A model generated the notes under the pieces. The model was not told the origin of the DNA. It saw only the letters and a program-made list of their open reading frames with translations, and did no database searches. From contig NZ_BLYC01000004.1 of the NCBI RefSeq assembly GCF_019721995.1, positions 124,001-188,000 on the forward strand: DNA of 64,000 nt. The letters run 5' to 3'. This document shows, in pieces, positions 1,637 through 57,656 of this stretch. Every line of letters begins with the position of its first letter. The first letter of the stretch is position 1. Made by a program: the position numbers and the translations under genes. The DNA comes from Bathymodiolus japonicus methanotrophic gill symbiont (GTDB lineage Bacteria; Pseudomonadota; Gammaproteobacteria; Methylococcales; Methylomonadaceae).

Positions 1637-1896
1637 CGCTGTCAGCCCCGGACGGGCTGATAGTCTCCAGAAGGCGCAGGGAAATTTGCCAATCCGAAGT
1701 GCGCGATAGCGCGCGAGGGAGGCTAAAATTTTATCCCGAATAGCCGTAGAGCCATTTGTGGTAGCCATGACTGAGCTGCTTTGTGCTCAGTCTGTGGCGG
1801 ACGCAGGGCGGCTGGAGCATCTCCTATTCGCTGCGTAGGTGAACGAATTACGGCGACAGGAGTCCCGGAATTTCGTGAGGTAGCATGGCGCGCCTG
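1637..1896 (+). repeat. Structured mobile element B, copy 1 (260 bp)
   Basis: Begins CGCTGTCAGCCCC and ends GGCGCGCCTG. It is almost identical to 19082-19341, and its second half is homologous to the 280-bp A elements. Visible hairpins: TCAGCCC/GGGCTGA at the left end, GCGCG/CGCGC near the middle, GACTGAGC/GCTCAGTC, and ACGCAG/CTGCGT enclosing GGAG/CTCC. There is no credible ORF. It sits exactly at the stop codon of the disrupted vapC. Confidence 0.85.
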
Positions 1897-1998
1897 TTAA
1901 AAAACACTTACGACTAAAAGACGGTCAACTATAATGATCCCCAAAAACTAGACCAGCATTTAAGATAGAATCTTGCCCTCAAAACTGAGGATTAAGAA

Positions 1999-3436
1999 AT
2001 GACCATAAATCGGAAGAAGCATAGTATGCAAACCAAAGTAAAAGTGGTATTAGACGTACTAAAAGGGGAAAAGACAAGAGCTGAAATTACCGCGAAATAT
2101 GGTATTCATGCAACACAAATCAACAATTGGAAAAAAGCTGTATTAGAGGTTATTCCTGAAGCATTCTCGACTAAAAGGAAACAACAGGATAATGACCAGC
2201 AGGCTTTAGTTGACGATCTGTACAAGCAGATAGGGCAACTGGAAGTAGAGAATGATTTTCTAAAAAAAATCTATGACTCTTCCACTTGCGACTCGAAAAA
2301 TGTGGATAGAGCCAGGTCATTCAGAGTTAAGTATCAGAAAGCAGTGTTGCTTGTTGAGCATCAACAGGTCAAGTTTATATTACCGACCCGTTGGCATAGA
2401 TGACTATACCCTGATGCTGATGCATGAATTGGATAAACAATATACCGAAACACCCTTTTACGGTGTCTTGAAAATGACGGAGCATTTGAGATCTCAAGGG
2501 CACCAGGTCAATCCGAAGCGAGTGAGACGGTTACTAAGGCAGATGGGGCTGGAAGCGGTATATCCAAAGCCAAGACTAAGTCATGGCAACTCAGAGCATA
2601 AGATCTATCCTTATTTACTGAGGAACCTGCAGATCGAGCGATGCAATCAGGTCTGGAGTACGGATATTACCTACATCCGCATGAAGCATGCGCTGAAAAT
2701 CATGGAAACGGAGCTTAGCGAAGTGGTGATTTTTAGTCCCTGAAAGGCGACAGGGCAATTCGCTGATTCGACGTGTGCTAGCAGCACGCGAGAGGAGCAA
2801 GAATTGCATTCCGAATAGCCGTCCAGCCAGTGAGGTAGTAATGACGAAGCGGCTTTTGTGCGTAGTCGTTGCGGACGCAGGGCGTTCAGGGCATCTCCCA
2901 TCCGCTGCGTAGGTGAACGAATTATGGCGACAGGAGTCCCGGAATTTCGTGAGGTAGCATGGCGCGCCTGGTTTTGTCTATCTGATGGCCATTATTGACT
3001 GGCATAGCCAATATGTACTTAATTGGGCGTTAAGTACGACAATGGACGCAGACTTTGCATAGCAGCCCTTAATGAAACACTAAGTTCATCACAGTGTGAA
3101 ATCTTTAATACGGACCAGGGAAGTCAATTCACAACGAATCGATTTACAGGGTCCTTATTGGAGAAAGGAATCCGTGTTAGCATGAATGGCAGAGGCCGCG
3201 CATTGGATAATATTTTTGTTGAACGATTGTGGCGATCAGTCAAGTATGAAAAGGTCTATCTGAATGACTTTCAGGCAGTGAATGAAGCATATTTAGGGCT
3301 GAAAGACTATTTTGAATTTTACAATCACAGGCGAATTCATCAGTCCTTGGACTATCGAACGCCAGCGGAGGTTTATTATAAAAAAAACGGTCTATACGTG
3401 AGAGTCCCTGCAGGCGGACTCCATGTGGACAAAGCG
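1999..3436 (+). pseudogene. IS3-family transposase OrfA-OrfB, disrupted
   Basis: OrfA (from the ATG at 1999) carries a helix-turn-helix (GEKTRAEITAKYGIHATQINNW) and a leucine-zipper-like tail. OrfB follows in another frame from about 2273, as usual for programmed -1 frameshifting in this family. The catalytic core has WSTDITYI (first Asp), NTDQGSQF (second Asp) and VERLWRSVKYE (Glu). Two lesions inactivate it. An A element is inserted between codons ATGAAGCAT and GGTTTTGTC. A one-base deletion near 3055 shifts the frame just before the CIAALNE segment. It cannot make a full transposase. Confidence 0.88.
2691..2970 (+). repeat. Structured mobile element A, copy 1 (280 bp)
   Basis: Starts CGCTGAAAATCATGG and ends CATGGCGCGCCTG. 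It lies inside IS3 orfB. The host reading MKHGFVYLMAII is restored exactly when 280 bases are removed, so insertion made no target duplication. Identical-length copies are at 5852, 17419, 52425 and 56185. Confidence 0.9.
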
Positions 3437-3702
3437 TGAATTTCCTACGGAACGTGTGGATAAGCTGATGGAAAACGATAAAGCCGTTTCCCACGAACTT
3501 ACCCGCACTAATTCACCCTTTGACCACATTTCACCGCAGTCGGCAAAGAGTAGTATCAAAACGCCTGCGGCGCAATAATAACAAATTATTAATATAAAAA
3601 GGGAAGGGCTATCTTAACTATTTAATAAATTGGTCTGGACAATGGGGAGTATTATAATATTCTGTAATTTTGTATCAGCAGATATTAAAGGCACTTTATT
3701 AA

Positions 3703-3906
3703 CTGAAGTTTCCCAATAATTATTTATGGTAAAATTGAAACTATGCTACAACTATATGAAAAAAACAGTCTTTTCATTCGTTTCAAATGCTATTGCCTAA
3801 GGGGAATTAAGTAGGGGTTTGCTATAAACATGGCAAAACCACCTAAAATAAACCTCGATACACCAGCATTGTGTGTTTCAGCTACTCAATAATTGGGAAA
3901 CTTCAG
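3703..3906 (-). repeat. MITE copy 2, inside vapC
   Basis: The same 204-bp element as copy 1 but in the opposite orientation. It is flanked on both sides by TTTATTAA, an 8-bp target duplication. It interrupts the PIN toxin frame after residues AIVNK. The segment 3437-3702 before it holds the IS3 right end and the vapC 3' piece. Confidence 0.92.
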
Positions 3907-4222
3907 TTTATTAACTATTGCAGTTGATGCGATTAATCGATTAGAGGGGGCTTTATGGATAAATATATTTTCCTGTGACATAGTCGCAATTTTGGGTGTC
4001 ACTGGCAGCACATTGAGTGACATAGCTTGGGTGATATCATCCATATACTGCCCGGCAGGAACGTCATCTCTTAAGCGCCCCGCTTTGAATAACATCGCTA
4101 TTTCCCAAAAAGAAATATCAGAACATGCCAGAGACTTTGTTGCTAATGAGTTTTCTACTGCTTGCGCTGCTTTTGAAGATAAGCGATTGGGTGCGTCCTG
4201 CCAAAAAATCAAAATATGGGTA

Positions 4223-4461
4223 TCACAAATTGTCAGCATCGGCACTCCACTCGTTGTCTAGTGGCTGCAGAATATCGCCAACTATCATGGTGCCGCGCAG
4301 TGCATTCAGCCTTTTTTTTGCTGCATCCACTTGATTAATTTCTGGAATAATTCTGGCAATGGTTTTTCCGTGGCTGGTAATTTGAATTTGTTCGCCATTG
4401 CTAACTTTCTTCAAAAATCAGGCAGATGAGCTCTTAAGTCAGTAATTTTAACTTGTAGCAT
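4223..4461 (-). pseudogene. Phd/YefM-type antitoxin of the vapC locus, frameshifted
   Basis: From the ATG at 4461-4459 the minus strand reads MLQVKITDLRAHLPDF, then hits TGA in a run of five T. With one more T it would read on as LKKVSNGEQIQITSHGKTIA, the classic Phd/YefM antitoxin N-terminus. The C-terminus (DNEWSADADNL) overlaps the toxin start by 23 bases, as usual for such pairs. A one-base loss has therefore killed the antitoxin. A TTG-initiated shorter form from codon LKK is possible but would lack the DNA-binding start. Confidence 0.75.
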
Positions 4462-4528
4462 AATGGAGCGTCTTTCTGTACATAAATTATGTACAATTAT
4501 AAGCAGTGGGTAAGCAATAGCAAATAGT

Positions 4529-5623
4529 TTAATTTTTTATTTGGCCCTTAAACCCCGTCCCAGTGCCAATTAATGCCGCAATGATATTCTTCTGTATTTC
4601 CGAAGAACCAGAAAATAATCTGCTGGCCATGGCATCCTGAACCAGTGTCGTCATTTTACTTTCCGCGATCAAGCCCTCAGCTCCCATGATGTGAGCGGCA
4701 TCCAGGCTGGATTGTAAAAATGCTTCACTGGCAAATAATTTGGTCTGCGCACTGGCTAGGCTAATACGCTTGCCTGAGTCTTTTAATCTGGCGCATTCAT
4801 TAACCCAGAGTAAGCAGCTTTCCTGGCGGCACTTCATATCGGCAATTTTATGGCTGATAGCCTGATTAGCACCTAAATGAGCACCATTTACATAACGATG
4901 CCTAGAGTGTTGAATTACTTGCTCTAGTTGCCATTGCATAATGCCAATAATCCCAGCGAATATAAACGCTCTTTCTAGCTCGAGAGCATTTTGGATCATC
5001 ATGCCACCTACACCGGTTTTGCCTAGCTGACGACCGATTGGAATCTGACAGCTGCTTAGGATAATATCGCCCATCGTAGCAGTAGTACAGCCTGCTACAT
5101 TAGGCTTGTCGGTAAAGTCTGCGCCTGAATCTGTTTGTTTAACCAGGAATGCAGAAAGTTTACCCTCTAGTTTTGCATAGATCAGCAATACATCGGCAAT
5201 CGGAGTGTTGGTGATAAAGCGCTTATGCCCATTGAGCACAAAGCCTGAGTCTGTTTGTAATGCTATAGTTTCTATAGCATTAACGTCTGAGCCAGCCTGA
5301 GGTTCAGTAATGGCATGACCGCCGATCATATCACCCGAGAGTAGTGCAGGGAGCCAGTTTTGTTGCTGCTCTTCTGTGCCATACAATATTAATGGGAAGA
5401 TTGAGCCCCAGAGATGTGCATTAATGGACAGGATTAAGCCAGTATCCTGGCACTGCTTGCCTAATTGTAAGTGCGCGTTAACCAGTTCCTGAAATCCATC
5501 TCCTTGTCCGCCTAGCTGAGCGCTAATGGCATGTTTTAGAAGGTTTTGTTGTGCGCAGAATTGTAAGCGCTGTTTCGATGCGAGAATATTGCTGCTAGGC
5601 GGGAGTTGCTGGTATTGGGTCAT
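4529..5623 (-). CDS. Acyl-CoA dehydrogenase family protein
   Basis: A 364-aa flavoenzyme of the ACAD fold. GGHAITEPQAGSDVNAI (about residue 97) is the conserved substrate/FAD motif, and FITNTPIADVLLIYAK fits the middle beta domain. The C-terminal motif is RLFSGSSEIQKNIIA, where the canonical medium-chain form is YEGTSEIQR. The Glu that serves as catalytic base in that position is absent here; other ACAD branches use a Glu elsewhere. These enzymes introduce a trans-2 double bond into acyl-CoA or carrier-bound acyl chains, passing electrons to ETF. Its partners are unknown: both sides are repeats. It may be part of a secondary-metabolism locus with the flavoprotein at 105, but that is speculation. 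Confidence 0.82.
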   Translation of the reverse strand: MTQYQQLPPSSNILASKQRLQFCAQQNLLKHAISAQLGGQGDGFQELVNAHLQLGKQCQDTGLILSINAHLWGSIFPLILYGTEEQQQNWLPALLSGDMIGGHAITEPQAGSDVNAIETIALQTDSGFVLNGHKRFITNTPIADVLLIYAKLEGKLSAFLVKQTDSGADFTDKPNVAGCTTATMGDIILSSCQIPIGRQLGKTGVGGMMIQNALELERAFIFAGIIGIMQWQLEQVIQHSRHRYVNGAHLGANQAISHKIADMKCRQESCLLWVNECARLKDSGKRISLASAQTKLFASEAFLQSSLDAAHIMGAEGLIAESKMTTLVQDAMASRLFSGSSEIQKNIIAALIGTGTGFKGQIKN

Positions 5624-5638
5624 AAGGGAGTAAGTAGT

Positions 5639-5654
5639 GCGGACTTTAGTCCGC
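5639..5654. repeat. REP-like palindrome GCGGACTTTAGTCCGC
   Basis: A perfect 16-bp palindrome followed by TAG. The same CGGACTTTAGTCCGCTAG string occurs at 51071 beside a RAYT fragment, which suggests both are REP sequences mobilised by that transposase type. The rest of 5655-5851 has a second inverted repeat (GCTACGT/ACGTAGC near 5710-5735) and no gene. Confidence 0.6.
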
Positions 5655-5851
5655 TAGAGCCTTTAATATAGTCGAGAGCAAAGCACTGAAACTATCGCAT
5701 AGCTGGCTACGTAACGGTTTCAGCAACGTAGCTATTAGCAAAAACTCAGCCGCTAGAAAGCCACAGTCGTGACCGTGCGAAGTATAACTACCCAGATAAT
5801 TGTACTTATTATGTCATGTTAACAAGGATATTAAGATTTTCTTAATCCTCT

Positions 5852-6131
5852 CGCTGGAAATCATGGAAACGGAGCTTAGCGAAGTGGTGATTTTTAGTCC
5901 CTGATAGGCGACAGGGCAATTCGCTGATTCGACGTGTGCTAGCAGCGCACGAGAGGAGCAAGAATTGCATTCCGAATAGCCGTTCAGCCAGTGAGGTAGC
6001 AATGACGAAGCGGCTTTTGTGCGTAGTCGTTGCGGACGCAGGGCGTTCAGGGCATCTCCCATCCGCTGCGTAGGTGAACGAATTATGGCGACAGGAGTCC
6101 CGGAATTTCGTGAGGTAGCATGGCGCGCCTG
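5852..6131 (+). repeat. Structured mobile element A, copy 2 (280 bp)
   Basis: A full-length A element with two early differences (CGCTGGAAATC). The right flank is CTATTG. The host sequence is not recognisable. The stretch 6132-6254 after it contains no gene. Confidence 0.88.
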
Positions 6132-6254
6132 CTATTGGTGTTTGTAAAAGGGAATAACTTGCTTAATGAAACAATACGAAATTCAACCTCATTTCTTAAC
6201 CTATCTTCGTGACATATACAGTCAATTTCCCATTATTTCAATGAGTTAAATTTT

Positions 6255-6578
6255 TCAATCGGCCCCAGTTGGCACTACAGGTTTCATATCAACGATCGTT
6301 TTAACTTTTCCAATCGGGTCGGGGTTAATATTCAACGCAGTGTATATTTGTTTTTGTCTGGTTTCTGCTTTGCTTGTGGTTCGCAGGTGAATGATTGTAT
6401 CGTTATCCGTGGGTAAAGTAATGGTCATGCGTTGCTGGGTCGACATCCTGTTGCGAATGCTTTCCCAGCTTAGATGGGTGTCCTGCAATCTAAGTTGATA
6501 ACGCAGTACATGTACCAGGTGGTAAGCTAATAATGTGATGAATAGGTGTCCGGTAACCCGCTCTTCTTTTTTGTGATA
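6255..6578 (-). pseudogene. C-terminal remnant of an IS1634/IS4-type transposase
   Basis: About 105 residues (KKEERVTGHLFITLLAYHLVHVLRYQLR, then SWESIRNRMSTQQRMTITL) match the C-terminal domain of IS1634-like transposases by pattern. The 5' side is cut at 6579 by an IS4 element end, so the catalytic core is gone. Its 3' end contains GTAGTGCCAACTGG, which is also found in the MITE-C elements at 19001 and 54734. Confidence 0.7.
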
Positions 6579-7015
6579 CTCGATGTTCAAGTTTTTGATA
6601 TTGAGAAGGTAAAACCAGGTATTCTGAGGTTGTTGTAATTTTATCGGTGTAAGCCCATGTTAATGAATGCCCCAGCCACCTTTATCCAGAGCTATATTGA
6701 CGATTTAAATGATGCGCTCAATCAGCTAAAACCCGGAGCCGCTTTGACACGGATTCAAGCCGTTTGGTTGGGCACTTGTTTAACGGGCATACTGCTAATG
6801 AACTCTGTTTGCTGGGCTAAGTTTGAGCGAGCAAGCCTTGGAGATTGCAAAGTAGCCGCATTATCCTGGGTGTTTCGTAAAGCAAGTATACCCTGGGACT
6901 GGTTGCTACGGGTGAGTGTGGTCTTAATTTTAAAACGTTATGGCATTACTGAAGGTGTGTTGGCCTTTGATGAATCAGACCGAGCACGATCTAAGTCTAC
7001 AAAACGTATTTATAA
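6579..7015 (+). mobile_element. IS4-a element, left fragment with transposase N-terminus
   Basis: Starts with the terminal repeat CTCGATGTTCAAGTTTTT and carries the first ~119 codons of the IS4-a transposase (ATG at 6660). The frame stops where another IS4-a copy is inserted in opposite orientation at 7016. The rest of this copy is not found on the far side, so insertion was followed by deletion or recombination. Confidence 0.85.
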
Positions 7016-8546
7016 CTCGATGTTCAAGTTTTTCCATCCCATTGCCATCAAACTCTTACCTTCACCCAGTAGAACAATACTTTAATGATGCTGTTGGCCC
7101 TAAGCGCCCTAAATCTCTGCCAATCATATGTTTTCCTGATGGCAGCAGTTGAAACACATCCTTTATTAATTCACCTAACTCTTTCAGCTTATCACCAGGA
7201 TCTGGAAACTCTAGCAATGACGTGATGAACTCAAGCAGTACATCCATTTGAGACTTGCGCTGTAAGCTTCCTACGGTATACGCAGGTAGTTTGCTTTCAA
7301 TGCGGGCTATTTGCTCTGGGTGAAGGAGGAGGCAATGGTCAAACAAAAGACTCAGAATCAGGCCACGGCTTGATCCCTCTTCATCTAATTGTTTGGCCTC
7401 ACGCCCCCATCCTTCATAAAGCTTCCAGTCCTCAAAGAAAACCTCAATCAGCCATCTCAACGTATAGGCTTGAATAATATCTTGTGTGCGCCAAGTCAGG
7501 TCTGTCGCCACTAAATAGCGATAGTCGTTTTCACCGTCATATTTTAAGGCAATGACAAAGCGTTTTTTACTGTGTGAACTCACCTTTAATCGTGCACTGC
7601 TGACAGTCACTTTAATCTCTTTTCCGCCACGTACACGTATTATCTGATCAATGCCTTTGTTAATCGAATTAAAGTAGCTCTCGACTGACCTTATTCTACC
7701 TCTATATTCAATATTTTGGTTTTTACGTAATTGGCTAATCACCTGCGAGCCTCCAGATTCTTTAGCGGCTTCGTCCATAAAGGCTTTTTCACCATACAGC
7801 GCATCAGCCAGTACGCCTTTAATTTTAATCAGGCTATGCGCAACTTTAAACTCTTTTAATAAGCCTAATGCAATCTCTGTTTTGGTCGGGTAGGCACTGT
7901 CACGTTCAGGCTTAATAGGCCGATCTTTTTTTGCTATACCGCTCTTTTTCAACCGTTTATCTTCTTTATCCCACTGCTTTAAGGCTGGATCCGGCATATA
8001 AAAGAAAAAACCGACAGGCACTGTAATGGATGAGGTAACTAGCAGCAATAATACTATCGTTTGTCCATTAACATACCCGCCGGAGCCTTTGTGTTTCTGC
8101 TTGTAAACCTTATAAATACGTTTTGTAGACTTAGATCGTGCTCGGTCTGATTCATCAAAGGCCAACACACCTTCAGTAATGCCATAACGTTTTAAAATTA
8201 AGACCACACTCACCCGTAGCAACCAGTCCCAGGGTATACTTGCTTTACGAAACACCCAGGATAATGCGGCTACTTTGCAATCTCCAAGGCTTGCTCGCTC
8301 AAACTTAGCCCAGCAAACAGAGTTCATTAGCAGTATGCACGTTAAACAAGTGCCCAACCAAGCGGCTTGAATCCGTGTCAAAGCGGCTCCGGGTTTTAGC
8401 TGATTGAGCGCATCATTTAAATCGTCAATATAGCTTTGGATAAAGGTGGCTGGGGCATTCATTAACATGGGCTTACACCGATAAAATTACAACAACCTCA
8501 GAATACCTGATTTTACCTTCTCAATATCAAAAACTTGAACATCGAG
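7016..8546 (-). mobile_element. IS4-a, complete copy (1531 bp)
   Basis: Bounded by inverted repeats CTCGATGTTCAAGTTTTT / AAAAACTTGAACATCGAG. The length equals that of the copies at 19613 and 55923 once their indels are removed. The flanks differ (IS4-a sequence on the left, IS630 on the right), so the expected 5-bp duplication is lost here. Confidence 0.93.
7062..8468 (-). CDS. IS4-family transposase, intact
   Basis: A 468-aa DDE transposase and the only full-length transposase in the window. The first catalytic Asp lies in VLAFDESDRARSK, the second in GVLADALYGE. The Glu is in YTLRWLIEVFFEDWK, which fits the Y-x2-R-x3-E-x6-K signature of IS4. It cuts and pastes its own element and could serve the defective copies at 19613, 55923 and 63886 in trans. 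Those copies generated 5-bp target duplications (TGATA, TTTCA). The ATG at 8468 follows the conserved leader that starts each copy. Confidence 0.92.
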   Translation of the reverse strand: MLMNAPATFIQSYIDDLNDALNQLKPGAALTRIQAAWLGTCLTCILLMNSVCWAKFERASLGDCKVAALSWVFRKASIPWDWLLRVSVVLILKRYGITEGVLAFDESDRARSKSTKRIYKVYKQKHKGSGGYVNGQTIVLLLLVTSSITVPVGFFFYMPDPALKQWDKEDKRLKKSGIAKKDRPIKPERDSAYPTKTEIALGLLKEFKVAHSLIKIKGVLADALYGEKAFMDEAAKESGGSQVISQLRKNQNIEYRGRIRSVESYFNSINKGIDQIIRVRGGKEIKVTVSSARLKVSSHSKKRFVIALKYDGENDYRYLVATDLTWRTQDIIQAYTLRWLIEVFFEDWKLYEGWGREAKQLDEEGSSRGLILSLLFDHCLLLHPEQIARIESKLPAYTVGSLQRKSQMDVLLEFITSLLEFPDPGDKLKELGELIKDVFQLLPSGKHMIGRDLGRLGPTASLKYCSTG

Positions 8547-9267
8547 TTTTAAGAATAGCTAAAAATTCTTGAGGCAGCCCAGCTTCTTTTAAAAGTCTAA
8601 GTGACTTTGGTTTTATCTCATAAGCCAATGATTCTCGGTATTGAAAACTCCCTCCTTCGAGTTCGATCGTACCAAACATTTTCAACCCTTTTCGAATCCC
8701 TGATGTTTTCACTGTGGGTTGCTCTCCTATTGGAGCCCAGGTTCGTGCCAATGAACCCCACATAGCAAATGACACCTCATCACCGAATAAAACGACACTC
8801 TTTTCTTCCAGCCACGTTTTTCTTTCAAGCTCGTACTTTTCTTCTTCTTGGCGATCAGTCACAAAACGAGCTTTTTGATAACTGAAGCCCAGTTTTTTCA
8901 TTAGGCTTGATAAATAGTTCAAGTTATAACGAACTTCAAATTTTAACCAAATAAGCTCGGCAATCATCGCAGTATTCCATATTCCACAATGAAATCCATT
9001 GTCTTCTGGGCCTTTCTTTATCAACTCAACCAATCTATTTTTCTGGTCTTTAGTTAACTTTGACTTCCGACCACGTCCTTGATAGTGTTGCCCTATTAAC
9101 CAACCGACACCTTTATGCATGAATGTTTTCAGCCAATTTATAATGGTTTTTTCACAGACTCCCATTAGGCGTGCTATTTCTTTGATTCCCATGCATTCAC
9201 TGAACCAGAGTAGAGCTTGAGTTAATCGATATAAACGAATATTACTTAGCTTGAGAGCTGTCGCCAT
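8547..9267 (-). pseudogene. IS630-family transposase, N-terminal part
   Basis: About 240 residues. There is an N-terminal helix-turn-helix (CMGIKEIARLMGVCEKTIINWL), a linker with RGRKSKLT, and the first catalytic Asp in VVLFGDEVSFAMWG followed by the RTWAPIG segment. The second Asp and the Glu are missing because the frame is cut at 8547 by IS4-a. The ATG is at 9267. It is a different relative from the IS630 fragment at 62054, which retains the other half of the catalytic domain. Confidence 0.88.
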
Positions 9268-11448: not shown

Positions 11449-11456
11449 TTTAGTAA

Positions 11457-17312: not shown

Positions 17313-17796
17313 CTGAAGTTTCCCAATTATTGAGTAGCTGAAATACACAATGCTGGTGTATCGAGGTTTATTTTAGGTGGTTTTGCCATGTTTATAGCAA
17401 ACCCCTACTTAATTCCCCCGCTGAAAATCATGGAAACGGAGCTTAGCTAAGTGGTGATTTTTAGTCCCTGATAGGCGACAGGGCAATTCGCTGATTCGAC
17501 GTGTGCTAGCAGCACGCGAGAGGAGCAAGAATTGCATTCCGAATAGCCGTCCAGCCAGTGAGGTAGTAATAACGAAGCGGCTTTTGTGCGTAGTCGTTGC
17601 GGACGCAGGGCGTTCAGGGTATCTCCCATCCGCTGCGTAGGTGAACGAATTATGGCGACAGGAGTCCCGGAATTTCGTGAGGCAGAATGGCGCGCCTGTT
17701 AGGCAATAGCATTTGAAACGAATGAAAAGACTATTTTTTTCATATAGTTGTAGCATAGTTTCAATTTTACCATAAATAATTATTGGGAAACTTCAG
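17313..17796 (+). repeat. MITE copy 3, interrupted by an A element
   Basis: Left part 17313-17418 and right part 17699-17796 join to the usual 204-bp sequence (CTTAATTCCCC/TTAGGCAATAGC) when the A element is removed. CATATAAA flanks both ends, an 8-bp target duplication. The MITE was therefore here before the A element. Confidence 0.93.
17419..17698 (+). repeat. Structured mobile element A, copy 3 (280 bp)
   Basis: A full-length copy inside MITE copy 3. The five uninterrupted MITE copies serve as empty-site references, and the host sequence is restored without gain or loss of a base. Confidence 0.93.
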
Positions 17797-18792: not shown

Positions 18793-18878
18793 ATGCTTAA
18801 AGATCTACCACTCTCTGAACATATTCACCAACACTGCAATGAAAGTATGGAACGTGCCCTGTTAGCAGAGCGTCATCC
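18793..18878 (+). pseudogene. IS4-b transposase N-terminal fragment
   Basis: 29 codons from ATG 18793, identical in protein to the start of the copy at 63562. It ends at the A element junction, GCGTCATC followed by CGCTGAAAATC. Confidence 0.85.
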
Positions 18879-18931
18879 GCTGAAAATCATGGAAACGGAG
18901 CTTAGCGAAGTGGTGATTTTTAGTCCCTGAT
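18879..18931 (+). repeat. A element 5' fragment
   Basis: The first ~53 bases of an A element, ending at TCCCTGATA where IS4-a sequence begins. A shorter duplicate of the same A/IS4-a junction is at 19584-19612. Confidence 0.85.
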
Positions 18932-19000
18932 ACTCGATGTTCAAGTTTTTCCATCCCATTGCCATCAAACTCTCACCTTCACCCAGCAGAACAATACGTT
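18932..19000 (-). mobile_element. IS4-a end fragment
   Basis: About 69 bases of the IS4-a transposase-3' end, from CTCGATGTTCAAG to ACAATACGTT, then replaced by MITE-C. It diverges by a few bases from the complete copies. Confidence 0.8.
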
Positions 19001-19583
19001 AACCCATCTTCGTCACTATTGATGATGTAGTTGTTATAAATCAATTGGTTGAAATTTTAAAAAGTAGCCAGTTGGCACTACCGCTGTCAGCCCCGGACCG
19101 GCTGATAGTCTCCAGAAGGCGCAGGGAAATTTGCCAATCCGAAGTGCGCGATAGCGCGCGAGGGAGGCTAAAATTTTATCCCGAATAGCCGTAGAGCCAT
19201 TTGTGGTAGCCATGACTGAGCTGCTTTGTGCTCAGTCTGTGGCGGACGCAGGGCGGCTGGAGCATCTCCTATTCGCTGCGTAGGTGAACGAATTACGGCG
19301 ACAGGAGTCCCGGAATTTCGTGAGGTAGCATGGCGCGCCTGAGATTTTGTGTTTTTGTATAAAACGTTGGATTTTTTAGAGTATTTTTGTCGCATGTAAA
19401 TTACACTCAAATAATGATGATTTTTTTGACAAAAGTCAATGAATTTATCGACAAAAATAATATAAATGGCACTACAAAACTTTCAAAAAAAACACCATTG
19501 ATTTTAAAGAGAATTTTTCGACAAAAAATCGCTTAAACCGATGAATCAATGGCTTAGAAAGATGAAAGTGACGAAGATGGGTT
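19001..19583 (+). repeat. MITE-C copy 1 (323 bp plus inserted B element)
   Basis: The ends are AACCCATCTTCGTCACT and its inverse AGTGACGAAGATGGGTT, a 17-bp perfect terminal repeat. The interior is AT-rich with repeated CGACAAAAA/TTTTTGACAAAA motifs. A B element occupies 19082-19341; a related copy at 54734 lacks that insertion and gives the empty site. The motif GTAGTGCCAACTGG is shared with the IS1634-type remnant at 6255, so it may derive from that IS. Confidence 0.75.
19082..19341 (+). repeat. Structured mobile element B, copy 2 (260 bp)
   Basis: Inserted between TTGGCACTAC and AGATTTTGTG, which are directly joined at 54811-54820. No target duplication is present. Sequence is nearly identical to 1637-1896. 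Confidence 0.93.
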
Positions 19584-19612
19584 AGCGAAGTGGTGATTTT
19601 TAGTCCCTGATA

Positions 19613-21142
19613 CTCGATGTTCAAGTTTTTCCATCCCATTGCCATCAAACTCTTACCTTCACCCAGTAGAACAATACTTTAATGATGCTGTTGGCCCTAA
19701 GCGCCCTAAATCTCTGCCAATCATATTTTTTCCTGATGGCATCAGTTGAAACACATCCTTTATTAATTCACCTAACTCTTTCAGCTTATCACCAGGATCT
19801 GGAAACTCTAGCAATGACGTGATGAACTCAAGCAGTACATCTATTTGAGACTTGCGCTGTAAGCTTCCTACGGTATACGCAGGTAGTTTGCTTTCAATGC
19901 GGGCTATTTGCTCTGGGTGAAGGAGAAGGCAATGGTCAAACAAAAGACTCAGAATCAGGCCACGGCTTGATCCCTCTTCATCTAATTGTTTGGCCTCACG
20001 CCCCCATCCTTCATAAAGCTTCCAGTCCTCAAAGAAAACCTCAATCAGCCATCTCAACGTATAGGCTTGAATAATATCTTGTGTGCGCCAAGTCAGGTCT
20101 GTCGCCACTAAATAGCGATAGTCGTTTTCACCGTCATATTTTAAGGCAATGACAAAGCGTTTTTTACTGTGAGAACTCACCTTTAATCGTGCACTGCTGA
20201 CAGTCACTTTAATCTCTTTGCCGCCACGTACACGTATTATCTGATCAATGCCTTTGTTAATCGAATTAAAGTAGCTCTCGACTGACCTTATTCTACCTCT
20301 ATATTCAATATTTTGGTTTTTACGTAATTGGCTAATCACCTGCGAGCCTCCAGATTCTTTAGCGGCTTCGTCCATAAAGGCTTTTCACCATACAGCGCAT
20401 CAGCCAGTACGCCTTTAATTTTAATCAGGCTATGCGCAACTTTAAACTCTTTTAATAAGCCTAATGCAATCTCTGTTTTGGTCGGGTAGGCACTGTCACG
20501 TTCAGGCTTAATAGGCCGATCTTTTTTTGCTATACCGCTCTTTTTCAACCGTTTATCTTCTTTATCCCACTGCTTTAAGGCTGGATCCGGCATATAAAAG
20601 AAAAAACCGACAGGCACTGTAATGGATGAGGTAACTAGCAGCAATAATACTATCGTTTGTCCATTAACATACCCGCCGGAGCCTTTGTGTTTCTGCTTGT
20701 AAACCTTATAAATACGTTTTGTAGACTTAGATCGTGCTCGGTCTGATTCATCAAAGGCCAACACACCTTCAGTAATGCCATAACGTTTTAAAATTAAGAC
20801 CACACTCACCCGTAGCAACCAGTCCCAGGGTATACTTGCTTTACGAAACACCCAGGATAATGCGGCTACTTTGCAATCTCCAAGGCTTGCTCGCTCAAAC
20901 TTAGCCCAGCAAACAGAGTTCATTAGCAGTATGCACGTTAAACAAGTGCCCAACCAAGCGGCTTGAATCCGTGTCAAAGCGGCTCCGGGTTTTAGCTGAT
21001 TGAGCGCATCATTTAAATCGTCAATATAGCTTTGGATAAAGGTGGCTGGGGCATTCATTAACATGGGCTTACACCGATAAAATTACAACAACCTCAGAAT
21101 ACCTGATTTTACCTTCTCAATATCAAAAACTTGAACATCGAG
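19613..21142 (-). mobile_element. IS4-a copy 2 (1530 bp), frameshifted
   Basis: Full length with both terminal repeats. It interrupts an A element and is flanked by TGATA on both sides, a 5-bp target duplication. The transposase (21064 down to 19659) is broken by one lost T in a T-run near 20384 (four instead of five). Otherwise it is nearly identical to the intact copy, so the lesion is recent. Confidence 0.92.
19659..21064 (-). pseudogene. IS4-a transposase, single frameshift
   Basis: The frame encodes residues 1 to about 228, then shifts at about 20384 and continues from MDEAAKESGG to the end. Both Asp motifs and the Y-x2-R-x3-E-x6-K segment are present but in two frames. Confidence 0.9.
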
Positions 21143-21372
21143 TGATAGGCGACAGGGCAATTCGCTGATTCGACGTGTGCTAGCAGCACGCGAGAGGAGC
21201 AAGAATTGCATTCCGAATAGCCGTCCAGCCAGTGAGGTAGTAATGACGAAGCGGCTTTTGTGCGTAGTCGTTGCGGACGCAGGGCGTTCAGGGCATCTCC
21301 CATCCGCTGCGTAGGTGAACGAATTATGGCGACAGGAGTCCCGGAATTTCGTGAGGTAGCATGGCGCGCCTG
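21143..21372 (+). repeat. A element 3' part (230 bp)
   Basis: Continues the A element after the IS4-a insertion, beginning TGATAGGCGACAGGG and ending GCGCGCCTG. The right flank is IS4-b transposase sequence (ATTTCAATGC). Confidence 0.9.
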
Positions 21373-50834: not shown

Positions 50835-50841
50835 GGCATAG

Positions 50842-51045
50842 CTGAAGTTTCCCAATTATTGAGTAGCTGAAATACACAATGCTGGTGTATCGAGGTTTAT
50901 TTTAGGTGGTTTTGCCATGTTTATAGCAAACCCCTACTTAATTCCCCTTAGGCAATAGCATTTGAACCGAATGAAAAGACTATTTTTTTCATATAGTTGT
51001 AGCATAGTTTCAATTTTACCATAAATAATTGTTGGGAAACTTCAG
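50842..51045 (+). repeat. MITE copy 4
   Basis: A 204-bp copy flanked by TAAGGCATAG on both sides (50832-50841 and 51046-51055), a 10-bp duplication and the longest of the set. The left duplicate includes the lpxC stop codon. Confidence 0.94.
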
Positions 51046-51070
51046 TAAGGCATAGTTAACGGGCGTAGAA

Positions 51071-51087
51071 CGGACTTTAGTCCGCTA
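51071..51087. repeat. REP-like palindrome CGGACTTTAGTCCG
   Basis: A 14-bp perfect palindrome followed by CTAG, identical to 5641-5657. It lies 46 bases from a RAYT fragment on the minus strand. Confidence 0.65.
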
Positions 51088-51132
51088 GTTTGTAAGCCCT
51101 AGGAGTTCTAGAGCTGTTGATTGATGAGCTGT

Positions 51133-51378
51133 TTAATATGTCACTCTCCCTATCTCCACCATGCTTACCTCACGTGTCTTAAAGCCCGTTTCAAGCTCAA
51201 TTTTCGCATGAAAATTATCCACGCCTAAAACTTCATCTCTATTAATAGGCCGTGTTATTAACTCTAATTCATATTTCTGCAAGGGACTAGTAAATAGTTC
51301 TTTATAGGACAATCTTCGGTATGATCCAATACGGGATAATTGATTATATATTACATGCTCACGAATGAGGCCATCCAT
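51133..51378 (-). pseudogene. REP-associated tyrosine transposase (RAYT), C-terminal fragment
   Basis: 81 codons: HVIYNQLSRIGSYRRLSYKELF, then LITRPINRDEVLGVDNFHAKIELETG. This matches the C-terminal pattern of RAYT proteins (an H..Y..L......R...Y..LF block, then VLG.D.F...IE...GR). The N-terminal HUH/Tyr catalytic domain is missing, so the fragment cannot be active. Its closeness to a REP palindrome supports the call. Confidence 0.65.
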
Positions 51379-51695
51379 TTTCCCTGGTGTATTATGATTC
51401 CTTGATTTTTCCTGGATTGCCCGATGCCCTCTGAGAGAAGGTTAGTGTGAGGGAGCTTGAACAGTTAGCATTCAATATATTCTGCTCTTTTGATCCCATT
51501 AAAGATGGGGGGCAGAACACAATGCTGTATATCTGGTAGTATTATTTACACTGTAATATGTACAGATGTGAATCATTCGCCATTTCCCAAACTTCGTCTG
51601 TTTCATGTCAGCGAATATTACATTACTACATTATCTTTTTTACCAGCAATGGACGTTAGCTAGTAGTTGTTGATGCCAATTTTAACTCTAGGCAG
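51379..51695. other. Non-coding interval, no recognisable feature
   Basis: AT-rich sequence between the RAYT remnant and the IS4-b right end. No ORF, hairpin of note or shared repeat was seen. Confidence 0.5.
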
Positions 51696-52424
51696 CATCA
51701 GTGTTCCCCTATCAATTGAGGCGGTAAAACTAACCTCGCCACAAGAGAGCTCATAAAGCACTGTAAAGACATTCCTGTTATTATTGTGTTTTGAACTGCC
51801 CGAATGGTATACGAGCTGATACGAGATATTCTTGCCTGGAAAAATAATGGATTCACAAAACGATCTCGTTTTTGAGCCTGTTGCTGCCTTATCTCCAGAG
51901 CCTCGCTATATTTTTTATCCGATGGATGAATCAATTCTGGCTGTTGTGTTTTTGAAATCTCTTCAAACACGCGCATTAAATTATAGCTCATTGCAGTCAG
52001 GCGCATTTGATTTTCAAGTGAGCGGGTATTGGAAGGCCAAGCTTTAGTTTCCTTGAAATTACTTTTAGTGTTATTGAATGTCTTTTCAATCGTCCATCGC
52101 TTGAAATACAGCATGGCAATGGTTCCAGGGTTAATAGTCATTGGCAAGGTTGTCACAAACCGGTGAAGTTTTCCGGTTTCTGGATCACGGTAATCCACCA
52201 CGTTAAATTTGATGCCCCTGTTTTCGTACACACTGTATGCTTCAACCCTGTATTGATCTCATGCTGGGAGTCAAAAGGGATAGACTCAACCAGAGTCGCA
52301 ATTGAATTTTCTTTTAGCATTGAAATCATGTAATTAGCATGTCGTTTCTGCCGATCCCACCAGACAAAGTCGGTGACGGCTTTATCGTAGACATAGAGAT
52401 GTTTCTGAGAGCTGTTATTTCCCT
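51696..52424 (-). pseudogene. IS4-b copy 2: transposase C-terminal half
   Basis: The right terminal repeat CATCAGTGTTCCCC starts at 51696. The minus strand encodes AVTDFVWWDRQKRHANYMISMLKENS through YFKRWTIEKTFNNTKSNFKE to the end. A small indel near 52243 (GGGTTGAAG against GGGGATGAAG in copy 1) shifts the frame. The 5' half is replaced beyond an A element at 52425. Confidence 0.88.
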
Positions 52425-52704
52425 CGCTGAAAATCATGGAAACTGAGCTTAGCGAAGTGGTGATTTTTAGTCCCTGATAGGCGACAGGGCAATTCGCTGA
52501 TTCGACGTGTGCTAGCAGCACGCGAGAGGAGCAAGAATTGCATTCCGAATAGCCGTCCAGCCAGTGAGGTAGTAATGACGAAGCGGCTTTTGTGCGTAGT
52601 CGTTGCGGACGCAGGGCGTTCAGGGCATCTCCCATCCGCTGCGTAGGTGAACGGATTATGGCGACAGGAGCCCCGGAATTTCGTGAGGTAGCATGGCGCG
52701 CCTG
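52425..52704 (+). repeat. Structured mobile element A, copy 4 (280 bp)
   Basis: A full-length copy between IS4-b sequence (left) and unrelated sequence next to the IS66 gene (right, CTCGAA). It shows two or three point differences from other copies. Confidence 0.92.
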
Positions 52705-52811
52705 CTCGAAGGACTTTTTTATTCGCCTTACAATCGCTTAAAACAAGGAAAATTCGGGATTTAAAACCCATGAGATAATAAGCCTGTCCTTAAAGCAATA
52801 CAGGTTACCTT

Positions 52812-54220
52812 TTGAAAATAGACTTCATCGATGTTGATTCCGCAATCAGTCATGCCAAACAGTTACTTGAAACTGAGCGTGATATATCGCCTGCGCTAAA
52901 ATCAGCACTGGAAGTGATTCTATTATTAGTCACGGTATTACTCAATCGAGTGACACTGAACAGCAAAAATAGCAGTAAACCACCTGCAAGTGATCCCAAC
53001 CGTAAAAAAGGGAATCGAAAAAAATCAGATAAGCCTTCTGGCGGACAAAAATCGCATGTCGGCACGACACTTCAAAAAATAGATGACTCGGATGAAATCG
53101 AGATCATTACCATTGATCGCCGTACCTTGCCAAAAGGGCGATACACGGCAGATGGCTTTGAAACACGCCAGGTATTCGATATTGATATCTCAAGGGTAGT
53201 GACAGAATACCAGGCGCAACGGTTGATAAATGGAAAAGGTCAGTGTTTTATCGCTCCTTTTCCAGATGAGGTTACTAAGGCTGCGCAATATGGTAATGGG
53301 ATAAAAGCCCATGTGGTTTATCTTTCGCAATATCAGTTATTGCCCTACAACCGAATACAGGAGTATTTCGCTGATCAATTAGGTATGCCGATTAGTGAAG
53401 GCTCTATCTATAATTTCAATGAACTGGCCTATGAGAAGTTGGCTGGGTTTGAAACTATCAGTAAAGAACACTTAGTCGAATCAGCGTGCATTCATGCGGA
53501 TGAAACAGGCATTAATATTAATGGTAAGCGCCATTGGCTACATGGGCCTCCAATGTTCAGTGGACACACTTCTTTCCCCATGCCAAACGTGGCACAGAGG
53601 CAATGAATGACATTGGTATTTTACCCCATTTTCATGGGATTTTATGTCATGATCATTGGAAGCCCTACTATAAATATGATTGTACTCATTCGCTTTGTAA
53701 TGCACATCATTTGAGGGAATTAACGCGCGCCTGGGAGCAGGATAAACAGGAGTGGGCGCTTGAAATGAAACGACTACTTGAAAAAATGAATGATGCCGTC
53801 AATGAAGCAGGTGGCATGCTACTACATAAAGAAGCAGAAAAATGGAAGGTACAATACAGAGAATTACTTGGCAAAGCGGAGATCGAATGCCCACCACCCG
53901 ATAAGCCTAAAGAAGTAAAACGGGAGCGAATAAAACGCAGTAAAGCTAGAAACTTACTGGAAAGGCTGATTAATTATGAAGAGGATGTCTTGCGCTTCAT
54001 GACAAATACCTGGGTGCCATTTACCAATAATGCCGCAGAAAATTCGATTCGGATGACCAAGGTTCAACAGAAAATATCCGGCTGCTTTCGTAGTACCAAG
54101 GGTGCAGAGATATTTTGTCGTGTCAGAGGGTATTTATCAACGTGCCGTAAACAAGGTCTAAGTGCAACTCAGGCAATGACCTTGGTCTTTGAGGGAAAGT
54201 TACCTGAATTTGCTTTATAA
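52812..54220 (+). pseudogene. IS66-family transposase, one frameshift
   Basis: Two overlapping frames (52812-53606 and 53534-54220) together give a ~465-aa IS66 TnpC-like transposase. The N-terminus has a helical zipper and SSKPPASDPNRKK; then YFADQLGMPISEGSIYN, CIHADETGININGKRHWLH (first Asp), CHDHWKPYY and CNAHHLREL (second Asp and Cys/His), and WVPFTNNAAENSIRM (Glu). A lost T at about 53549 (CATGGGCCTCC for CATGTGGCCTCC) breaks the frame. No TnpA or TnpB genes are present. Confidence 0.9.
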
Positions 54221-54228
54221 TTTCATTG

Positions 54229-54255
54229 AACTACTCAGCTTCGCTGAGTAGTTAC
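54229..54255. repeat. Palindrome AACTACTCAGC/GCTGAGTAGTT
   Basis: A near-perfect palindrome immediately after the IS66 pseudogene, repeated at 58075-58103. It could be the IS end or a terminator-like stem. Confidence 0.6.
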
Positions 54256-54256
54256 G

Positions 54257-54772
54257 ATGGAATATCATGTTTATTCACCTAATGATTCTGGTGGAAGTTA
54301 TCTTGTTGAAGGTGACTGTAGGCAAGTCAGGCCTGATATTTTAATTTCAAAAGATGGGGTTATTATTGCAATTTTAGATGCTAAGTATAAATGGTATAAA
54401 AAAATAGGGAAGCATGCAGATAAAAATAACTCTGTAAGTCGAGATGATTTATATCAAATGATTACTTACCTTTATCGCTATGCTGAACCTGATAAAAAAG
54501 TTGTTGGACTTTTTATATCGCCAGTAAAGAATTTTTCTGAATCTCCTGATTCGGATGTAAAATCTTTGAATAACCATGAAAACCATAAAATAGGGGTTAT
54601 AAATTTAGATATTGAACAGTTTAATACAAGCGGCGATGACAATAAAACTCCATTTTCACTAAAAACAATACAGGAAGAGGAAGTCAGATTTATTGATAAT
54701 ATAAAAAAATACTTGATAATCTTAAATGAGCTTAACCCATCTTCGTCACTATTGATGATGTGGTTGTTATAA
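54257..54772 (+). pseudogene. McrC-like restriction subunit, fragment
   Basis: About 160 residues. RQVRPDILISKDGVIIAILDAKYKWY is the PD-(D/E)xK nuclease motif of McrC (5-methylcytosine-dependent McrBC restriction), with Asp and DAK visible. DLYQMITYLYRY follows as in the family. The N-terminal half is lost at the IS66 end; the true C-terminus is lost where MITE-C begins at 54734, so the last residues come from that repeat. No McrB GTPase gene is nearby. Confidence 0.72.
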
Positions 54773-54938
54773 ATCAATTGGTTGAAATTTTAAAAAGTAG
54801 CCAGTTGGCACTACAGATTTTGTGTTTTTGTATAAAACGTTGGATTTTTTAGAGTATTTTTGTCGCATGTAAATTACACTCAAATAATGATGATTTTTTT
54901 GACAAAAGTCAATGAATTTATCGACAAAAATAATATAA
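54734..54938 (+). repeat. MITE-C copy 2, truncated
   Basis: Matches 19001 onward, without a B element at the GGCACTAC/AGATTTTG site. It is cut at AATAATATAA by a B element in reverse orientation; the right end is not found. Confidence 0.8.
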
Positions 54939-55119
54939 CAGGCGCGCCATGCTACCTCACGAAATTCCGGGACTCCTGTCGCCGTAATTCGTTCACCTAC
55001 GCAGCGAATAGGAGATGCTCCAGCCGCCCTGCGTCCGCCACAGACTGAGCACAAAGCAGCTCAGTCATGGCGACCACAAATGGCTCTACGGCTATTCGGG
55101 ATAAAATTTTAGCCTCCCT
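54939..55119 (-). repeat. Structured mobile element B, copy 3 (partial, reverse)
   Basis: Begins CAGGCGCGCCATG, the inverse of the B right end, and runs to TTTTAGCCTCCCT. There a C-type element starts, so the B left end with its first hairpins is missing. The preceding MITE-C flank is again joined without duplication. Confidence 0.85.
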
Positions 55120-55345
55120 CGCTGAAAATCAGGGAAACGTAGCCTAAGCGAAGTGAAGATTTTTAGTCCGCGATAGCCGTAGGGCCGTTGTTTTGTCGGA
55201 GTCTGAGCGTTAGCGAAGGTGGAGACAAAATAAAAGGCCATCCGACACGGCGTCAAGTCATTTGGAGCCTATGTTCCGACCCCTTGTTGGGTCGGGACGA
55301 GGTGACGAGGACGAATCGGGGCCGCCGGAGGCATAAGTGGTCGCG
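55120..55345 (+). repeat. Structured element, third variant (C type)
   Basis: Starts CGCTGAAAATCAGGG with the same AAAATC/GATTTT end hairpin as A, and shares the GATAGCCGTAGGGCC core with B and A. The interior differs and contains CCGACCC/GGGTCGG. It ends near GGAGGCATAAGTGGTCGCG, equivalent to GAGGTAGCATGGCGCGCC of A and B. The exact right end is uncertain. Confidence 0.65.
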
Positions 55346-55855
55346 TTAAGTTTTTGCTGCTTGCTTGGGCTGGGATGCCCAAAACAAGCTTTCGCAAAAA
55401 TAGCGACTCCCCGCTGGGATTTACATAAATTCCCTGATGGTGTTATGCAAGCATTACAACGCCCAAGTGGCGATGGTTACTCCAAAGACGTAGAGTTTTC
55501 TCTGAAAGTACAACAAATGAAAAATCAGAATGCTCAAGCCCAAGCAGCCGCAAATGCATGGAGCGATCTTAATAAGGCAATAAAAGGTGCTACACCTAAG
55601 TCAACCTACACTAATTGTTACAATACATTTGGTGGCGTAAACTGTAATTCAACTACTTATCGAAGTAGCTATATGTGCATTTCTGTAGAAGAGTGGCGAT
55701 TTATTAATTCCTTTGCCCCATGGCTTTCAGTTATTGGAACATTGTTAGCAGTTTGTGCGTCGCTATATATTTCATACTCCACAAGAAAAATAGCACTAAG
55801 CATTTCTTCTGGGGTTGTCGTTTTTAATGAAAATGGAGTGGATGAAGAGTTTTAA
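55337..55855 (+). CDS. Unrecognised secreted or membrane-anchored protein
   Basis: 172 aa from GTG 55337, which follows GGAGG. The N-terminus (VALSFCCLLGLGCPKQAFA) could be a signal or lipoprotein-like peptide. The middle is Gln/Ala-rich (QQMKNQNAQAQAAANAW) with a Cys/Thr segment (TNCYNTFGGVNCNSTTYRSSYMC). Residues about 128-146 (WLSVIGTLLAVCASLYISY) form a membrane helix, then a short tail. I do not recognise the family. Its start lies inside the end of the C-type element, so the true N-terminus may have been replaced by the insertion. Confidence 0.5.
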   Translation: MVALSFCCLLGLGCPKQAFAKIATPRWDLHKFPDGVMQALQRPSGDGYSKDVEFSLKVQQMKNQNAQAQAAANAWSDLNKAIKGATPKSTYTNCYNTFGGVNCNSTTYRSSYMCISVEEWRFINSFAPWLSVIGTLLAVCASLYISYSTRKIALSISSGVVVFNENGVDEEF

Positions 55856-55968
55856 TAAAAGATGTCACCAACACTGGGTACAGAACAGTATTTTTAAATA
55901 GTCTTATCTGTATTTCATTTCACTCGATGTTCACGTTTTTCCATCCCATTGCCATCAAACTCTTACCT

Positions 55969-57656
55969 TCACCCAGCAGAACAATACTTTAATGATGCTG
56001 TTGGCCCTAAGCGCCCTAAATCTCTGCCAATCATATGTTTTCCTGATGGCATCAGTTGAAACACATCCTTTATTAATTCACCTAACTCTTTCAGCTTATC
56101 ACCAGGATCTGGAAACTCTAGCAATGACGTGATGAACTCAAGCAGTACATCCATTTGAGACTTGCGCTGTAAGCTTCCTACGGTCGCTGAAAATCATGGA
56201 AACGTAGCTTAGCGAAGTGGTGATTTTTAGTCCCTGATAGGCGACAGGGCAATTCGCTGATTCGACGTGTGCTAGCAGCACGCGAGAGGAGCAAGAATTG
56301 CATTCCGAATAGCCGTCCAGCCAGTGAGGTAGTAATGACGAAGCGGCTTTTGTGCGTAGTCGTTGCGGACGCAGGGCGTTCAGGGCATCTCCCATCCGCT
56401 GCGTAGGTGAACGAATTATGGCGACAGGAGTCCCGGAATTTCGTGAGGTAGCATGGCGCGCCTGATACGCAGGTAGTTTGCTTTCAATGCGGGCTATTTG
56501 CTCTGGGTGAAGGAGAAGGCAATGGTCAAACAAAAGACTCAGAATCAGGCCGCGGCTTGATCCCTCTTCATCTAATTGTTTGGCCTCACGCCCCCATCCT
56601 TCATAAAGCTTCCAGTCCTCAAAGAAAACCTCAATCAGCCATCTCAACGTATAGGCTTGAATAATATCTTGTGTGCGCCAAGTCAGGTCTGTCGCCACTA
56701 AATAGCGATAGTCGTTTTCACCGTCATATTTTAAGGCAATGACAAAGCGTTTTTTACTGTGAGAACTCACCTTTAATCGTGCACTGCTGACAGTCACTTT
56801 AATCTCTTTTCCGCCACGTACACGTATTATCTGATCAATGCCTTTGTTAATCGAATTAAAGTAGCTCTCGACTGACCTTATTCTACCTCTATATTCAATA
56901 TTTTGGTTTTTACGTAATTGGCTAATCACCTGCGAGCCTCCAGATTCTTTAGCGGCTTCGTCCATAAAGGCTTTTTCACCATACAGCGCATCAAGCCAGT
57001 ACGCCTTTAATTTTAATCAGGCTATGCGCAACTTTAAACTCTTTTAATAAGCCTAATGCAATCTCTGTTTTGGTCGGGTAGGCACTGTCACGTTCAGGCT
57101 TAATAGGCCGATCTTTTTTTGCTATACCGCTCTTTTTCAACCGTTTATCTTCTTTATCCCACTGCTTTAAGGCTGGATCCAGCATATAAAAGAAAAAACC
57201 GACAGGCACTGTAATGGATGAGGTAACTAGCAGCAATAATACTATCGTTTGTCCATTAACATACCCGCCGGAGCCTTTGTGTTTCTGCTTGTAAACCTTA
57301 TAAATACGTTTTGTAGACTTAGATCGTGCTCGGTCTGATTCATCAAAGGCCAACACACCTTCAGTAATGCCATAACGTTTTAAAATTAAGACCACACTCA
57401 CCCGTAGCAACCAGTCCCAGGGTATACTTGCTTTACGAAACACCCAGGATAATGCGGCTACTTTGCAATCTCCAAGGCTTGATCGCTCAAACTTAGCCCA
57501 GCAAACAGAGTTCATTAGCAGTATGCCCGTTAAACAAGTGCCCAACCAAGCGGCTTGAATCCGTGTCAAAGCGGCTCCGGGTTTTAGCTGATTGAGCGCA
57601 CCATTTAAATCGTCAATATAGCTTTGGATAAAGGTGGCTGGGGCATTCATTAACAT
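55969..57656 (-). pseudogene. IS4-a transposase, frameshifted and interrupted
   Basis: The N-terminal 220 residues read normally from 57656. An extra A near 56992 (ATCAAGCC for ATCAGCC) shifts the frame, and the A element at 56185-56464 splits the C-terminus after KLPAY. It is otherwise close to the intact copy at 7062. Confidence 0.92.
56185..56464 (+). repeat. Structured mobile element A, copy 5 (280 bp)
   Basis: Inserted between CCTACGGT and ATACGCAGG of IS4-a. The same site is empty at 7261-7290 and 19860-19890, so it is a direct empty-site comparison with no gained or lost base. Confidence 0.96.

Follow-up and report, generated by a model that had tools for sequence, protein, structure and literature searches.

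How can sequences that carry no gene of their own occupy hundreds of sites in one bacterial genome, with insertions that neither remove nor duplicate a base of the target? The question is raised by a stretch of 64,000 nucleotides (the whole of the DNA analysed here, referred to as the window) from the Bathymodiolus japonicus methanotrophic gill symbiont, a member of the Methylococcales (contig NZ_BLYC01000004.1, positions 124,001 to 188,000), which belongs to a genome of 4.97 Mb (109 contigs), hereafter the home genome. A first-pass annotation of the window had described three related sequences, A, B and C, as structured mobile elements without a conserved open reading frame (ORF) that insert with no target duplication. 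This observation is borne out overall, and the family proves larger than claimed: a target rule based on C at -4, a strand bias, the number of copies, the order-wide spread and the fact that C is a complete element had all been missed. A, B and C are best read, with confidence evenly divided on the claim as a whole, as members of a single old family of Methylococcales, mobile and non-autonomous elements which move by a Y1-type single-strand route. Below, L numbers denote DNA stretches and G numbers Methylococcales genomes.

The window holds five full A, two full B and one full C copy, together with truncated or partial copies and A left-end pieces (Table 1). The elements measure 280 bp (A), 260 bp (B) and 293 bp (C), within a family range of 260 to about 330 nt. 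All the copies in the earlier inventory were located, including the partial B, the fragments and C; the ends attributed to all three have to be corrected for C, whose left end CGCTGAAAATC is that of A, while its right end is GCGACTCCCC instead of GGCGCGCCTG. C is therefore a full family in its own right. A fourth form, with the left hairpin CCAGCC/GGCTGG, is present in L068 and L078.

The manner of insertion was studied at 124 different sites of full A or B copies (59 A, 65 B), for which exact ends were required. The flanks of each site were joined and an uninserted relative was sought in the fetched home-genome DNA. Such a relative was found for 62 sites; in 61 of them the alignment has no gap closer than 10 nt to the junction, and the sole gap is a few nucleotides to the left of it. 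The relatives are partly non-independent, because many sites lie in repeated sequences, and excision and insertion are indistinguishable at single sites. Direct repeats of at least 4 nt across the insertion occur at none of the 124 sites, and repeats of 3 nt at six, a small excess over the 2.3 expected. The four empty sites previously reconstructed were all recovered: those of the copies at 17419, 19082 and 56185 are exact within the window over 20+20 bases (for 17419 in four places, at 1517, 57844, 62593 and in one minus-strand copy; for the others as listed in Table 1), and that of the copy at 2691 is provided by its relative in L068. Insertion without loss or duplication of a base, as originally proposed, is thus upheld by mapping against empty sites, and these clean junctions speak strongly against ordinary DDE transposition.

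The elements enter three bases after a C, that is, behind a CNNH target. The left flank has C at -4 in 122 of the 124 A/B sites, the two exceptions having it at -3, and in 39 of 40 sites of C elements. In the A/B sites, G stands at -1 in 2/124 and C at -5 in 6/124, and the right flank displays a weak preference for T only. The C at -4 is already there in the uninserted relatives and so belongs to the target. A C at -4 is also found in the right end of the element itself, where the last four bases are CCTG, CCTA, CCAG, CTAG, CCAA or CCCA in A/B relatives, CCCC in the C family, and CCAG and CTTG in Methylococcus-like and Methylomonas-like forms. Judged by eye, the left rule is kept in all 21 aligned relatives, out of 22, for which the start was set correctly (the remaining one, L093, obeys it once its start is re-set), in all nine Methylococcus-like copies, in seven of the eight copies of the Methylomonas-like form and of G037 whose start is clear, in six of six intron-bearing copies and in two of three plasmid copies inspected. 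L091 is a further exception; L263 and L095, whose starts are unclear, were left out of this count.

Conservation of a fold was assessed in an alignment of 19 diverse full copies (A1), from which a consensus structure of 54 pairs was derived, 19 of them with changes on both sides. The structure was derived from the alignment on which it is tested, and this works in its favour. Compared with 500 shuffles, 96.7% of the cells are paired (88.9 in shuffles), 88 cells have double changes (26.2) and the covariation score is 0.301 (0.154); none of the 500 shuffles reaches any of the three values, and sliding the partners destroys the signal. Further pair types number 43, no more than in the shuffles (44.2). 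The covarying core extends over about 140 nt. It is enclosed by helices, one of which pairs GCCGU with AUGGC and another GGCG near the left hairpin with the extreme right end, its C at -4 included; these hardly vary and are consequently untouched by the covariation test. The left hairpin, which lies outside the pair count, is formed by AAAATCA/TGATTTT, TCAGCCC/GGGCTGA or CCAGCC/GGCTGG, and its upkeep through compensatory change, like that of the inner hairpin, had been recognised correctly. The ACGCAG/CTGCGT stem described as conserved fares otherwise: its covariation does not exceed that of the shuffles, and of its six pairs two are each broken in 5/19 sequences. In RNA folding, B is more stable than its shuffles (z -4.46) and A alone is not (z -0.43). 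Among 1015 pair cells, 131 are G-U and 8 are A-C; as a G-U pair corresponds to a C-A mismatch in the complementary strand, the top strand is the folded one. Selection on a folded single strand, whether RNA or single-stranded DNA, is supported by these data, as the earlier proposal had it.

The orientation of the copies in the home genome was compared with the sign of the GC skew of their stretch, A, B and C sequences being masked. Of the 130 full copies, 112 have their top strand on the G-rich strand (A 45/48, B 35/42, C 32/40), and L064 and L066, with mostly reverse frames, still follow the skew. In bacteria the leading strand is usually the G-rich one, which would place the top strand in the lagging-strand template. 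In other genomes, where the short flanks of the loci were used, 36 of 50 copies lean in the expected direction (54 were given and 4 dropped).

Copies were counted in 21 home stretches (about 0.46 Mb including the window), picked around A/B copies and hence not a random sample, which contain 165 matches: 48 full A, 42 full B, 40 full C and 35 partial. Truncations are balanced (15 five-prime and 15 three-prime among the 165 matches, splits by nested insertion not being separated), which argues against target-primed copying with loss of the 5' end. In the whole home genome, the 22-nt right end common to A and B has 777 matches (428 forward, 349 reverse) and its reversed control has none, which excludes chance. 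A covariance model of the A/B core (R1), with at most ten candidates scored per genome and with C copies liable to escape it, matches 57 of 301 Methylococcales genomes in 21 of 50 genera; element-bearing relatives include Bathymodiolus methanotrophic gill symbionts and a Methyloprofundus plasmid, which makes Methyloprofundus the probable genus of the home genome. With A as the query, no phage was matched, and the four matching plasmid records (Methyloprofundus, Methylobacter, Methylomonas) all belong to Methylococcales, three of them matching over the left 59 nt only. A scan with short patterns placed elements in 22 of 50 stretches, among the matches listed; when the other 28 loci, from other organisms, were searched again with R1, none was confirmed, one match having an E-value of 0.42. 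An A-type element with 88% identity lies in L084, in a genome of another family within the order (G083), a possible case of transfer between lineages.

A longer, autonomous version was not seen among 25 odd left-right distances (100 to 2354 bp), two of which were checked for ORFs, and in further contexts; the odd-distance copies that were inspected, which are not all 25, are nested, split or broken and have no ORF in common. No description of the family was found in the available text of the open-licence PMC literature (including PMC10652631, PMC7895826 and PMC3116915). Insertion sequences are reported to make up more than 20% of two Methyloprofundus endosymbiont genomes (PMC8788690) and have been counted in Methylococcus (PMC8527097), and the accessible portions of both papers contain no account of A/B/C elements.

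Taken together, these features suggest, with moderate confidence, single-strand transposition of the IS200/IS605 kind in which the elements are mobilised in trans, most likely by an HUH enzyme of the Y1 class (TnpA_IS200 or TnpA_REP). The top strand would move as a folded single strand and be inserted by a trans-acting single-strand endonuclease/ligase. It would become exposed in the lagging-strand template, where the left hairpin and the closing helices of the observed fold could join the ends. On the left the putative enzyme would cut 3' of CNNH, and on the right 3' of the C-N-N-R in which the element itself ends; its main cue would be the C at -4 by which both sites are marked. The excised strand would then be joined behind another C-N-N-H, leaving the clean junctions that are found. 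The long conserved core probably serves either in end assembly or in enzyme binding. Transposition of the IS608/ISDra2 type predicts what is seen here: clean joins, a mirrored rule at the two ends, folding of the top strand and, as far as the home genome is concerned, fork-side orientation. IS608 and ISDra2 use the lagging-strand template and end hairpins, and their cuts are set by the left-flanking tetranucleotide and by the last one of the right end; TnpA_REP enzymes are regarded as the likely movers of REP repeats, and high-copy structures in one genome are described as well (all from the accessible part of PMC6006769).

Candidate enzymes were sought in 23 genomes, some of them drafts, of which 18 bear elements and five do not. 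A Y1_Tnp match is present in 18/18 element-bearing genomes, in G075 as a remnant only. Individual copies lie close to such genes: in G006 an open Y1 frame is followed, about 155 bp downstream, by a B element, others are near IS200-type fragments of the home genome or inside a split Y1 gene of G063, and, as a weak case, one is about 1 kb from the RAYT of G222, with no consistency among these arrangements. A particular RAYT clade was also considered as the mover across the 301 genomes and is not supported, because close relatives occur in several element-bearing genomes and the home genome has only a distant match. The home RAYT gene (L293, 4390-5058) is flanked by palindromes of its own, GGGGACGCTACCC and GGGTAACGTCCCC, of the GGGGACG/ACCC type.

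Several observations weigh against a Y1-type route. Y1 genes are common in any case (88 of 101 genomes), and none was found in G010, whose genome is incomplete and whose element match is weak. In the loci searched, neither a transposase sharing the element ends nor a Y1 or RAYT gene consistently beside the elements was found, and no R1 match lies in the 10 kb around the home RAYT, where C copies could have escaped this A/B model. Known Y1 elements have a full tetranucleotide target, here reduced to one base, and their hairpins are short, which leaves a covarying core of about 140 nt unexplained. As to orientation, two home stretches run counter to the trend (2/5 copies concordant in L065 and 2/8 in L071), and in 20-kb stretches of G027, G161, G185 and G008 only 11 of 20 stretches are concordant, with the skew unmasked; given this mixed result elsewhere, the bias is demonstrated for the home genome and not for the family. 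Of the three candidates named in the first-pass annotation, HUH/IS200-IS605-type elements nevertheless remain the best fit, albeit with no linked enzyme, and the IS110-type and RNA-guided ones are not supported, as set out below.

An unknown single-strand recombinase beyond the families tested, for example a tyrosine recombinase acting on folded strands in the manner of integron integrases, appears somewhat unlikely. It would suit a folded single strand inserted without duplication and the fact that no tested family is linked to the elements. However, the conserved target base is three bases off the junction, whereas integron cores (G^TT) are conserved at the junction itself. Integrons are mentioned in two Methylococcus strains of 4.0 and 3.4 Mb in the part of PMC8527097 that is available.

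We also judge it unlikely that the elements are mobile folded RNAs, ribozyme-like molecules which would reverse-splice into single-stranded DNA at the fork and be copied by a reverse transcriptase acting in trans, such as that of a group II intron. The covarying top-strand fold rich in G-U pairs speaks for this reading, and group II introns without an endonuclease are likewise expected to insert cleanly and with fork-side orientation, as the elements do at home. RVT_1 is found in 14/18 element-bearing genomes (and in 2/5 element-free ones), and a group II-like intron is inside the left hairpin of the element in six of six copies examined. Yet RVT_1 has no match in four of the 18 (G003, G171, G036 and G075, which are drafts), 5' truncations are not in excess, and Rfam offers no ribozyme or intron: at gathering score, the only match in the window is one tRNA, and the section from 1600 to 3000, which contains a B and an A copy, has no match at E-values up to 10, HEARO included. 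Sub-threshold matches for the distant relatives L245 and L255 (neisseria_FSE, sR16, let-7) are weak and unrelated, and were taken as chance. Moreover, no element copy is present between 21.4 and 52.4 kb of the window, where cell-division genes are recognised by ORF reading, so forward splicing seems not to protect genes. The bolder form of this idea, an order-wide new class of RNA, mobile ribozymes that would splice themselves into fork DNA three bases past a C with a borrowed reverse transcriptase, is doubtful.

The intron mentioned above occurs in L304-L309 (G027 and G161), has a reverse transcriptase frame of 444 aa and interrupts the left hairpin at GGA^AACGG, always in the same place; R1 confirms the element core in five of the six copies. 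Either the element is the homing site of the intron or the two travel together.

Derivation from IS110 elements with a bridge RNA, or from IscB/TnpB elements with an omega-RNA, is very improbable. Such elements are structured, RNA-like and inserted without duplication, and on one Methylobacter plasmid (L317, 1825-2931) the start of a TnpB-type gene, which has a Cas12f1-like domain, and a C-like element are about 70 bp apart. The TnpB domain, however, is found in only one of the 23 genomes (1/18 element-bearing, as a degraded match, and 0/5 element-free), and the IS110 domain in 12/18 element-bearing genomes (G017 below the curated cut-off) and 4/5 element-free ones, the DEDD domain being missing from six of the 18. 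The suggested Rfam comparison with HEARO and omega-RNA models gave no match (no search was aimed at IscB), and the targets share one base and nothing of guide length. Finally, ordinary miniature DDE elements (MITEs) which have lost or never shown a target duplication would account for the high copy number, the shortness and the lack of a conserved ORF, and are practically dismissed by the 61/62 clean junctions, the lack of repeats of at least 4 nt and ends that, by eye, are not inverted copies of each other.

Table 1. Copies and fragments of A, B and C in the window
Element	Position	Strand	Flank	Context
Full B, 260 bp	1637..1896	+	CAGT	
Full A, 280 bp	2691..2970	+	CATG	Within IS3 orfB of the first-pass annotation; empty relative in L068
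Full A, 280 bp	5852..6131	+	CTCT	
Full A, 280 bp	17419..17698	+	CCCC	Within repeated MITE-like sequence
A left end, positions 1-53	18878..18930	+		Followed by an insert starting CTCGATGTTCAAG
Full B, 260 bp	19082..19341	+	CTAC	Empty site at 54795
A left-end piece	19582-19610			
5'-truncated A, minus first 50 nt	21143..21372	+		
Full A, 280 bp	52425..52704	+	CCCT	
Partial B, positions 77-260	54939..55122	-		Abuts the C insertion
Full C, 293 bp	55120..55412	+	CCCT	Right end GCGACTCCCC; adjoins the partial B
Full A, 280 bp	56185..56464	+	CGGT	Antisense in IS4-a frame of the first-pass annotation; empty sites at 7258 and 19855

No ORF common to A, B and C was found in these copies, in agreement with the original reading, with the qualification that several A copies lie in open, putative antisense frames of about 104-118 codons. 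A second type of insert, with the ends CTCGATGTTCAAG and CTTGAACATCGAG, is present in A near position 53 (window 18918-18939 and 21136-21153; L070 16582-16759), and in L070 it has TGATA on both sides, resembling the 5-bp duplication of a DDE-type element. A mosaic copy with an A-type left part and a B-type inner hairpin (L100, 619-897) suggests recombination between the families.

With 777 A/B right ends and, in the roughly 0.46 Mb sampled, 40 full C copies, this is a very abundant family of gene-less mobile elements for one bacterial genome, and it combines a fold that reaches across an order with an unusually simple target rule. The recognition and movement of a large folded strand thereby become testable, and the family is relevant to a question still open, namely whether repeats are truly mobilised in trans by chromosomal Y1 enzymes. 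It is also a reason for caution, as such elements may escape tools based on transposase genes when symbiont genomes are called rich in insertion sequences.

Among known systems, MITEs derived from DDE transposons differ in their terminal inverted repeats, which by eye are missing here, and in their target duplications. Integron integrases act on folded strands, and integron cassettes differ in that their conserved base belongs to a core of the G^TT type at the junction and not 3 nt from it. HEARO/omega-RNA and IS110 bridge-RNA elements are likewise structured, RNA-like, mobile and free of duplication; they are set apart by the missing Rfam match, by a target of less than guide length and by the absence of TnpB and IS110 from many hosts. 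Group II introns share a folded, RNA-like nature, clean insertion and possibly a link of insertion to the fork, and one of them homes in the left hairpin of the element in two genomes. They differ in that no Rfam intron model matches, in the length of 260 to about 330 nt and in the ends, CG...CNNR here and GUGYG...AY in the introns.

The REP, REPIN and BIME repeats associated with RAYT also comprise hundreds of gene-less folded copies per genome which are thought to be moved in trans by a chromosomal Y1 enzyme. REPs are defined as hairpins of 20-40 nt that have GTAG or CGTC as a tag at their foot (PMC3733652, in the part available). The present elements are far longer than such 20-40 nt palindromes, do not all have the hairpin-foot tag (by eye, GTAG lies inside many copies and not all), and have no copies detected by R1, which C copies could escape, in the 10 kb flanking the home RAYT. 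The IS200/IS605 elements (IS608, ISDra2) and their non-autonomous derivatives differ in their tnpA and tnpB genes and in a fixed tetra- or pentanucleotide target, replaced here by C at -4 and avoidance of G at -1 (H), and the long conserved core fold and the lack of a consistently linked Y1 gene are likewise foreign to them. With these elements the A/B/C family has in common duplication-free insertion (61 of 62 sites), end hairpins, recognition just 5' of the left end and within the final four bases on the right and, in the home genome (112/130 copies, against 36/50 copies judged from short flanks and 11/20 stretches of 20 kb in other genomes), orientation with the lagging-strand template.

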